Shown in pieces: positions 29,302 to 31,592 of a stretch of DNA of 64,000 bases. The translations under genes and the position numbers were made by a program. The notes below the pieces were generated by a model. That model had not been told where the DNA came from and did not search any database. It saw only the letters and a list, made by a program, of their open reading frames with translations. Source of the stretch: Clostridia bacterium. GTDB lineage: Bacteria > Bacillota > Clostridia > Acetivibrionales > DSM-27016. The stretch is taken from NCBI GenBank assembly GCA_026414765.1, contig JAOAIJ010000019.1, forward strand, positions 62,001 through 126,000, read 5' to 3'. Each line of letters starts with the position of its first letter. Position 1 is the stretch's first letter.

Positions 29302-29742
29302 ATGTTGGATAATATGGAAATAAGGAAACTAATACCTCACAGATACCCTTTTTTACTGGTAGATAAAGTATTGGAACTGGAACCAGGTCAGAAAATAGTA
29401 GCAATAAAAAATGTAACAGCAAATGAACCTTTCTTTCAAGGACACTTCCCTGAGTTTGCTGTAATGCCTGGGGTTCTTATAGTTGAAGCTTTGGCACAGA
29501 CTGCAGGCATATGTACGGCAAGTGCGGAACAGGATAAGGACAATAAAAAGCTGGGGTTGTTTGCCAGCATTGAGGGGATAAAGTTTAAAAAGCCTGTACT
29601 TCCGGGGGATACCTTAAAGCTGGAAGCGGAAATCCTGATGAACAAGCTTGGTGTGGTAAAAGCCAAGGTGCGTGCAACTGTTGATGACAAGGTAGCAGCA
29701 GAAGGTGAGATAAAGTTTGCAATGGCAAATGTTAAAAAATAA
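29302..29742 (+). CDS. fabZ: 3-hydroxyacyl-[acyl-carrier-protein] dehydratase
   Basis: A cytoplasmic enzyme of fatty acid elongation that dehydrates 3-hydroxyacyl-ACP to trans-2-enoyl-ACP. At 146 aa it is the standard hot-dog fold length. It shows [19 protein letters not shown], the catalytic His in [16 protein letters not shown] and the catalytic Glu in [11 protein letters not shown]. The active-site geometry (HFP then MPG) is that of FabZ. ATG 29302 follows AAAGGAGA. It is not in a fab cluster here but stands alone after the NAGPA gene, followed by a shared bidirectional terminator. Confidence 0.96.
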
Positions 29743-29777
29743 GAATAACCCCGGAAGGGGCTATTCTTATTTTTTAA
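29734..29777. terminator. Bidirectional terminator between fabZ and the ATP-grasp gene
   Basis: AAAAAATAAGAATAACCCC (29734-29752) pairs with GGGGCTATTCTTATTTTTT (29757-29775) around GGAA. A- and T-runs on both sides let it serve fabZ on the plus strand and the convergent ATP-grasp gene on the minus strand. Confidence 0.88.
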
Positions 29778-29788
29778 TCCTCAAGGCC

Positions 29789-30745
29789 TTAATTAATCAT
29801 TTCCCGTACTAAGGCTTTTGTAATCTGAAGATCTATCAAATTTTCCATCCATAACCATTGCCCTGCCGGATTGACTTCTAAAAAAAACAGATTATTATCT
29901 TGGGATACGATAAAGTCATAAGCCCCATAAATTAAGCCAAAAGATTTATGCAGCTTTAATAATCGATTTCTAAACGATTCCGGTATATCCGTTATAGAGT
30001 ATTTTACATTATAAATATCATTTCTCCAATCTGTTTCAGCTTCAGGAATGCCTGCAGTATCAATTCTTACAGGAAATATCTCTTCTCCGACAACTGTAAT
30101 TCTTAATTCATACTTTTTAGTTATTTTTTTCTGGAATATCCCGGGAGTAACCTTTACAGACATATTTATCCTATCAACTAAAGCTGATGATACTGTCGTT
30201 GTCATAGTTACCTTATCGGGTAACTCGTAATAATATGTCAGCGGCTTATATATGACCTCAGAGTGTGGTTTATGAGCTTCTATAAACCCTTTTATTTTAT
30301 CTGTATCATTAGATACTATGGTATTTGGGATTGAGAAACCCATTTTCACAGCCTTATCCAGCTGATGGATTTTATAAGAAGCTTTATAGTGTGAATCCAG
30401 GTTATTTATCCATTTTGCCGGAATGTTTTCGTAGAGAGGTCTAAGAGAATGAATCCATTCGCGGTTCTTCAAGGCTTGATAATTTAGGTGTTCAACAGTT
30501 TCTTTTGGCTGGATAATCGGAGGTTTTAGTCTCCACCAGACTGAACGGATGTTATTGTAATCAATGATCTTTTCGCCAATACAAAAGCTGAAATCAAACT
30601 TATTAGAATTTATATGATATGATAAAGAATGATTTTCATAGCAATTCTGGTGGTCAAATACATAGTATTCAGAACCTGACTTATCCAATAAATCCTTTGT
30701 CTTTTGAATGTGAGGGTCAATATTCTGTCCCATGATTAAAATCAT
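29789..30745 (-). CDS. ATP-grasp peptide ligase of the MvdD/graspetide maturase type
   Basis: A 318-aa cytoplasmic ligase. It resembles MvdC/MvdD-type ATP-grasp macrocyclases that form ester or amide links between Ser/Thr/Lys and Asp/Glu side chains of a ribosomal peptide. Visible features are an N-terminal Rossmann-like part (MILIMGQNIDPHIQKTKDLL), the RSVWWRLKPP motif found near the N-terminus of these ligases (about residues 67-76), a nucleotide-binding lysine region (SEVIYKPL), the acid-rich RIDTAGIPEAETDWRND and the Mg-binding FFLEVNPAGQWLWME. AGGAGGG lies 8 bases before the ATG. It is 55 bases downstream of a 64-aa candidate precursor on the same strand. No transporter or protease gene lies next to it. 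Confidence 0.87.
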   Translation of the reverse strand: MILIMGQNIDPHIQKTKDLLDKSGSEYYVFDHQNCYENHSLSYHINSNKFDFSFCIGEKIIDYNNIRSVWWRLKPPIIQPKETVEHLNYQALKNREWIHSLRPLYENIPAKWINNLDSHYKASYKIHQLDKAVKMGFSIPNTIVSNDTDKIKGFIEAHKPHSEVIYKPLTYYYELPDKVTMTTTVSSALVDRINMSVKVTPGIFQKKITKKYELRITVVGEEIFPVRIDTAGIPEAETDWRNDIYNVKYSITDIPESFRNRLLKLHKSFGLIYGAYDFIVSQDNNLFFLEVNPAGQWLWMENLIDLQITKALVREMIN

Positions 30746-30800
30746 TTTGTTCGCCCTCCTGTGTTTTTAGAATAGTCCCAAGGCTGGTTTTATACATAGA

Positions 30801-30995
30801 CTAAAAAGGAATATCTACATCTGCATCAATATGACCTGGGCCACCTGTGGCTGTAGCTGTTGCATCAAGTTGGATTGAAGCTCCATTCTCAATGTTACTC
30901 TTAACTCTCAGACTCGACAACTCTGCTGCTATAGGTTTGATTACTACCTCTGTGTTAGGATCGACTTCCAAAAATACTTTGATTTTTTCGCTCAT
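30801..30995 (-). CDS. Candidate graspetide precursor peptide
   Basis: A 64-aa peptide immediately upstream of the ATP-grasp ligase. The start at ATG 30995 has GGAGGT 7 bases upstream. The first about 40 residues (MSEKIKVFLEVDPNTEVVIK...) form an acidic, strand-forming leader. The C-terminus reads LDATATATGGPGHIDADVDIPF: three Thr at every second position, a GGPG turn, then three Asp at every second position. That arrangement of hydroxyl donors and carboxyl acceptors on two facing strands is what an ATP-grasp ester-forming ligase would need. No export signal or double-glycine site is obvious except GG in the core. The modification itself is inference. Confidence 0.72.
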   Translation of the reverse strand: MSEKIKVFLEVDPNTEVVIKPIAAELSSLRVKSNIENGASIQLDATATATGGPGHIDADVDIPF

Positions 30996-31423
30996 AATTA
31001 CAACCTCCAAAAATATTTATTAGTGCTAAACCAACCTTGGGCAAAGTAAACAGATACTTAACATTACTATGGTTAATTTATTATGGTACATAACTGCAAA
31101 ATAAATTTATTAATATAGTATTAGTAACAGGGAACTTAATATTCGGTTAACTGGTATATTTAGTAAAATTTTCTCTCGCGTATTTCCAGTCGCTTTCCAG
31201 GACGGAAATGATGCCGATGTTATGTCTAGAGCCATCTGACTGATATATTAATATTTACCAGAATGGATACTGCTCTGCACTACGATTCTCTCATAGACCA
31301 TGTAATTGAATACTTCCTTTTTTCTGGAGATTATGTAAAGATGCAAAAACTATTAATAATGGCATATATTTATTCGAAACAATTACCTGTATTATTAAAC
31401 ATATTAACTGTAAGATGCCATAG
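30996..31423. other. Intergenic region upstream of the precursor gene
   Basis: This stretch is AT-rich with no supported gene. A 60-codon plus frame at 31263-31445 has no ribosome site and unusual composition. It presumably holds the promoter of the precursor-ligase pair on the minus strand, but I could not pick a convincing -35/-10 pair. Confidence 0.4.
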
Positions 31424-31561
31424 ATTCAAATTATTTACATTATAAATAATGATATAAAAGTTGTCAATGCCGGACAAAATGCTTCAAACTTTTTATTTGA
31501 TACTGTAATGAGTCTTGGATTGGTAAAAAAGCAAGATAACTATATTTCTGCGAAAGATTGA
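31424..31561 (+). pseudogene. Possible decayed gene end
   Basis: A plus frame without a start codon reads NNDIKVVNAGQNASNFLFD then TVMSLGLVKKQDNYISAKD and stops at TGA 31559-31561. Its composition is protein-like, in contrast to the surrounding AT-rich frames, but the upstream part is full of stops. The family is not recognised. Confidence 0.25.
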
Positions 31562-31565
31562 AATA

Positions 31566-31592
31566 AAAAAGCCGCTTATAAAAGCGGCTGTT
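31566..31592 (-). terminator. Terminator after murC
   Basis: AGCCGCTT (31570-31577) pairs with AAGCGGCT (31582-31589). On the minus strand the stem is followed by TTTTTTATTT, just past the murC stop. Confidence 0.85.

Follow-up and report, generated by a model that had tools for sequence, protein, structure and literature searches.

A probable two-gene graspetide locus with a predicted nested Thr-Asp ester ladder in a Clostridia bacterium

Organization of the locus

The window analyzed here, a stretch of 64,000 nucleotides from the genome of a Clostridia bacterium, carries on its reverse strand a pair of genes lying between murC and fabZ. The upstream member (30801-30995) encodes a predicted graspetide precursor of 64 amino acids, MSEKIKVFLEVDPNTEVVIKPIAAELSSLRVKSNIENGASIQLDATATATGGPGHIDADVDIPF, recognized as an open reading frame with its translation, by homologous precursors located beside orthologous ligases and by a family profile; the downstream one (29789-30745) encodes an ATP-grasp graspetide synthetase of 318 amino acids, identified by profile, PDB and fold matches. 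Only 55 bases separate the precursor stop from the ligase start, and each gene features a ribosome binding site 8 nt before its ATG: GGAGG for the precursor (31004-31008) and AGGAGGG for the ligase (30754-30760), both on the reverse strand. The initial annotation had pointed to this small frame, its ribosome site and the gap to an ATP-grasp gene, all of which the sequence confirms.

Ahead of the pair, and on the same strand, a terminator-like hairpin found by scan follows murC (31570-31589), and a promoter-like TTGACA-17-TATAAT element, matching the consensus at 12/12 positions, precedes the start of the precursor by 444 nt (31439-31467); both are consensus matches only. Because of these two elements the pair reads as a separate transcription unit, with a putative leader RNA of about 440 nt. 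The corresponding stretch, from the consensus promoter to the precursor start (30996-31438), is AT-rich, and an Rfam search that included it gave no match. On the opposite side, a probable shared terminator hairpin (29741-29768), recognized by eye and not flagged by the scanner, lies between the ligase and fabZ ends.

The locus was rightly described beforehand as lying between two conserved blocks and as having neither transporter nor protease: no transporter, peptidase or methyltransferase gene is present within the murC-fabZ interval. In 7 out of 8 genomes of the same order, the murC and fabZ ends are roughly 110-160 bases apart, while in the window their spacing is 1.85 kb, because the precursor-ligase pair sits between them: the pair is thus an insertion at a junction otherwise tight in the order. 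The GC content of the ligase gene is 34%, as compared to 41% for murC and fabZ. In the eighth genome (G001), the sole other one of the host family, fabZ is not within reach beside murC. There, an ORF for a MutM-like glycosylase and an XRE-type regulator adjoin murC where fabZ would be expected (L025, 1-1480), a differing insert, which suggests that the junction is variable.

The ligase and its relatives

By both sequence and fold, the ligase belongs to the graspetide-synthetase family (MvdC/MvdD/TgmB). It matches the NCBIfam profile TIGR04187 with an E value of 2e-59 and the MvdC and MvdD profiles at about 1e-48, in all cases well under the curated cut-offs (350 bits, full length, for TIGR04187), and is therefore not assigned to a named subfamily; RimK, LysX and MptN profiles are matched weakly. 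When a profile of the ligase family was compared to the PDB, CdnC, AMdnB, MdnB, MdnC, PruB and PsnB were the only matches below 1e-10, CdnC (7mgv) being found at 2e-55. Similarly, the best folds for the AlphaFold2 model of the ligase (pLDDT 80, pTM 0.81) are CdnC, MdnC, AMdnB, PruB and PsnB, with RimK and ArgX behind: Foldseek E values are 1e-25 for graspetide synthetases versus 1e-15 for RimK/ArgX.

Orthologous ligases were found at seven further loci, in Flavobacteriales, Pedobacter and Bradyrhizobium and in an integrase-bearing contig of a viral collection. The Pedobacter match was obtained first, followed by five genome loci and the viral-collection contig; searching the genome collection with the window ligase alone retrieved no relatives, and adding the Pedobacter ortholog retrieved five. 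Across the family, residues K125, K167, E213, R215, D277, E290 and N292 do not vary. Identity between the window ligase and its orthologs amounts to only 32-36%, which means that its specificity could differ. In a tree of 24 graspetide-type ligases, the eight accompanied by a precursor of this family fall on one side of a single branch (support 93/92), the other 16 being graspetide-type enzymes with different precursors. Graspetide groups have been numbered 1-43, a ligase joining a group at an alignment score of 70 (PMC13097080); since scores between the window ligase and the family members found reach at most 58, it would stay apart from them by this measure.

Several other relatives were set aside. 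Ligases from Clostridia and other Bacillota (L002, L004-L006, L017-L023) are not orthologs: they fall outside the clade, and their precursors, where visible, are of other types, featuring TREGIDRSE repeats, TKTxVxREDDDD or ETGEDQKGE sequences. Three Bacteroidota ligases (L039-L041, E values from 1e-63 to 1e-67) were likewise excluded, being without the family leader. Beside one of these, a different graspetide-type ligase, lies a precursor with three repeats like DTETFTRTTGEPTDSDND (L041, 1082-1501), a TxTxT / DxD ladder in multi-core form. A long ORF that precedes a graspetide-type ligase in Burkholderia stagnalis combines a HEIGH motif like that of metallopeptidases with a repeated Thr/Asp tail, possibly a protein-fused core (L007, 894-2501).

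A conserved precursor family

A homologous precursor, 61-67 amino acids long, is located upstream of the ligase at all seven further loci; the one in L012 is truncated where its contig ends, and in Bradyrhizobium (L014) the distance from the ligase is about 1.2 kb. Precursors kept beside orthologous ligases, with conserved Thr and Asp positions in the core, are what the initial annotation had staked its reading on, and both were found at 7 out of 7 loci. The window and Pedobacter precursors are similar with a BLASTP E value of 3e-7 (single comparison), and a precursor-family profile identifies one copy in the host genome (E 5e-28). No Pfam or NCBIfam model matches these precursors.

The family shares the leader pattern MxKK...V-D/E...IKPhAxxL, which aligns from Met1 to the KPhAxEL segment. 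Graspetide leaders carry a Phhx(1,2)h motif (PMC8939145), and such a motif is found within the first 30 residues of the window precursor and of its homologs: in the window it is of the Phhx2h type, PIAAEL, starting at residue 21 (30918-30938, reverse strand, including K20). This putative recognition motif is conserved in all homologs, in the variants KPIAAEL, KPFASEL, KPLGETM, KPLAARL and KPLAAGL. A GG cleavage site is not conserved across the family: the core is preceded by NGA in the window and by GG in L013 and L015, whereas L014 and L016 have one Gly there and no site is obvious in Pedobacter. For graspetide precursors in general, a GG-type leader cleavage site is reported in no more than about half (PMC8939145).

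In Bradyrhizobium, precursor and ligase are separated by an ORF of 364 amino acids that carries a zinc-protease-like HEYYH motif and is not matched by Pfam (L014, 4901-5992); it could be a leader peptidase. In Pedobacter, the pair is directly followed by lasso-peptide genes, namely a B2 protein, an asparagine synthase-like cyclase and a likely precursor (L003, 5247-8093).

The locus is rare. Among 391 genomes of the class, the ligase family was found only in the window's own, the other matches being other graspetide types; larger draws, covering the host phylum, the phylum to which a Flavobacteriales member belongs and the class of the Bradyrhizobium one, added no member to the seeds, the nearest matches having been checked, and a plasmid search with the precursor found no match. 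The locus also looks mobile, given that the Pedobacter member (L003) is on a plasmid and that the viral-collection member is next to an integrase. The latter, in an IMG/VR contig (L016, 1-2682), immediately follows a tyrosine integrase, a hint that the family may be spread by integrative elements.

The core and its predicted cross-links

The C-terminal part of the window precursor contains, as initially annotated, a Thr-x-Thr-x-Thr / GGPG / Asp-x-Asp-x-Asp pattern: a predicted donor strand, T46-A-T48-A-T50 (30846-30860), a turn, GGPGHI (residues 51-56, 30828-30845), and a predicted acceptor strand, D57-A-D59-V-D61 (30813-30827), all on the reverse strand. Among 1036 stop-to-stop segments of at least 30 amino acids in the window, the precursor is the only one featuring [ST]x[ST]x[ST]...[DE]x[DE]x[DE] within its last 30 residues. 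Thr50-Asp57, Thr48-Asp59 and Thr46-Asp61 fall in one antiparallel register, and three such rungs were obtained in a fraction of 5e-5 of 20,000 shuffles of the last 24 residues. The same test gave four rungs for L016 (0 out of 20,000 shuffles, below 5e-5) and L015 (1.5e-4), and three for L014 (2e-4) and for L003, L011 and L013 (0.007-0.02). A structure model of the precursor places strands at residues 46-50 and 57-61, but with a pLDDT of 44 it is too uncertain to count as evidence.

All homolog cores feature alternate Ser/Thr residues, a turn, rich in G, P and N and variable in sequence, and alternate Asp residues. In the four Flavobacteriales cores, T1, T3, T5, T7, D14, D18, D20 and D22 never change, and all 8 variable positions are off the donor/acceptor face (P 0.013). 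Registers differ between lineages, however, and the exact pairing is therefore something we infer: Flavobacteriales have a Gly at one acceptor position, so that a nested pairing would need a bulge there, and Pedobacter has a Thr at the would-be third acceptor. The Bradyrhizobium core has four donors and three acceptors.

On this basis, the KPIAAEL segment of the leader would bind the ATP-grasp ligase, which would phosphorylate the side-chain carboxylates of Asp57, Asp59 and Asp61. The hydroxyls of Thr50, Thr48 and Thr46 would then attack the activated carboxylates, producing up to three nested omega-esters, Thr50-Asp57, Thr48-Asp59 and Thr46-Asp61, with a loss of up to 54 Da. The result would be a stapled antiparallel hairpin with GGPGHI as its loop. 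The bonds, as well as the order and pairing proposed for them, are predicted from sequence.

The same Thr and Asp residues might instead be joined in a staggered or cage-like fashion, or by only one or two bonds. Interlocked rings do exist among graspetides, as in microviridins (PMC13097080), and the acceptor Gly of Flavobacteriales, as well as the unequal numbers of donors and acceptors in two homologs, would allow other pairings. Such arrangements appear rather improbable to us: in all lineages, strict alternation is seen before and after a short turn, which fits residues facing each other across a hairpin, the substitutions in Flavobacteriales cores spare the donor/acceptor face, and Thr-x-Thr / Asp-x-Asp stems are already known to form nested ladders (PMC12291112). 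The nested three-ester ladder is the probable product.

Rarity and sporadic occurrence, with no other carrier in the class sample and a ligase of low GC content, might also point to a decaying, silent locus, or to a small ORF which is not the substrate of the ligase. We give this very little credit, as precursor homologs lie beside every orthologous ligase examined, neither frame is disrupted, the ribosome sites are good, a consensus promoter is present, and residues of the catalytic region of the ligase are invariant. LysW ends in a C-terminal Glu. A ligase adding residues to protein ends, like RimK, ArgX or LysX, with the small ORF as a LysW-like carrier, would agree with the ATP-grasp fold, the weak RimK, LysX and MptN profile matches, the presence of ArgX/LysW among fold matches and the acidic C-terminal end of the small ORF product, but is hardly credible and was rejected, since graspetide profiles (1e-59 versus 1e-10 for RimK/ArgX) and folds score far higher, that terminal Glu is absent, and a RiPP-type leader motif and a Ser/Thr-Asp alternation would have no role in such a carrier.

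Discussion

The pair is, on profiles, folds and family conservation, very probably a graspetide precursor with its ligase, and we regard a minimal two-gene graspetide locus with a nested ester-ladder product as a well-founded overall explanation.

How the product would be processed is less obvious. A Peptidase_C39 domain was not found in the host genome, which is 97% complete, while the same search was positive in 8 out of 14 control genomes. The usual GG-cleaving exporter is thus probably absent, and if shared export machinery is used, as suggested in the initial annotation, it is unlikely to be of the C39 double-glycine type. Since neither the locus offers an exporter or a peptidase nor the genome a C39 domain, either the product stays in the cytoplasm, with or without its leader, or general proteases and exporters encoded elsewhere trim and release it. 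Characterized graspetides have been described as protease inhibitors (PMC8939145): by analogy, such a role is the default guess, to which we would give somewhat less than an even chance. A bolder proposal, that these loci form an unnumbered, two-gene graspetide group, horizontally spread over at least three phyla, whose single three- or four-rung ladder is never exported and acts intracellularly, for instance by inhibiting a cytoplasmic or phage protease, seems doubtful.

The locus would contribute a compact scaffold of the Thr-Asp ladder type, which takes one enzyme and a short leader to make and is useful for stapled hairpins, and raises the question of what a graspetide does where neither locus nor genome offers the usual leader peptidase. 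Being a small family composed of precursor and ligase alone, it would be easy to test in E. coli.

The nearest solved structures to the window ligase, in both sequence and fold, are the chryseoviridin ligase CdnC and the microviridin ligases MdnC/MvdD. Microviridin-type cores are cage-like and carry a TxKxxSD core, which is absent from the window precursor. PsnB, the plesiocin ligase (group 2), is a clear fold match, and plesiocin resembles the window pair in its hairpin-like cross-links, Thr donors and single ligase; its precursor, however, has several repeats with two esters each and Glu acceptors, whereas the window has one core with Asp acceptors.

Among graspetides, cage-like types are distinguished from nested hairpins (PMC13097080), and the latter include the closest counterparts of the predicted product. 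OEP6-1 (group 6) is like the product predicted for the window locus, as far as descriptions allow, in having a single hairpin, three nested side-chain cross-links and one ATP-grasp ligase; amycolimiditide has four nested links and fuscimiditide two, Thr7-Asp18 and Thr3-Asp22 (PMC12291112). The latter two (group 13) share with the product predicted for the window core nested Thr-Asp esters, a stem-loop and a constant i+j register (PMC12291112, PMC13003496). Thus, of what was initially proposed, the graspetide precursor and its MvdD/TgmB-type ligase are upheld by profiles, folds and conserved neighbors, while the view that its topology has no counterpart in a named class was wrong, OEP6-1, fuscimiditide and amycolimiditide all having nested stem-loop Thr-Asp ladders (PMC12291112).

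Differences from the group 13 graspimiditides are nonetheless evident. In these, a PIMT-like methyltransferase forms a loop aspartimide, whereas the window locus has no methyltransferase, and none of the PIMT-like O-methyltransferase type, a hallmark of the group, lies between murC and fabZ; their reported leader motif is RPFG, as opposed to KPIAAEL, and their loop spans 10-12 residues, as opposed to 6. Loops of other nested graspetides measure 3-4 or 10-12 residues (PMC12291112). Groups 27, 28 and 35 are listed as ligase and precursor only (PMC13097080). The shape proposed for the ladder is therefore already known; the distinguishing traits are the sequence of the precursor, its 6-residue loop and a locus with no methyltransferase, transporter or peptidase. 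Set beside the numbered groups by their descriptions, the family may coincide with group 27, 28 or 35, and is best regarded as an undescribed graspetide family, ordinary in kind.
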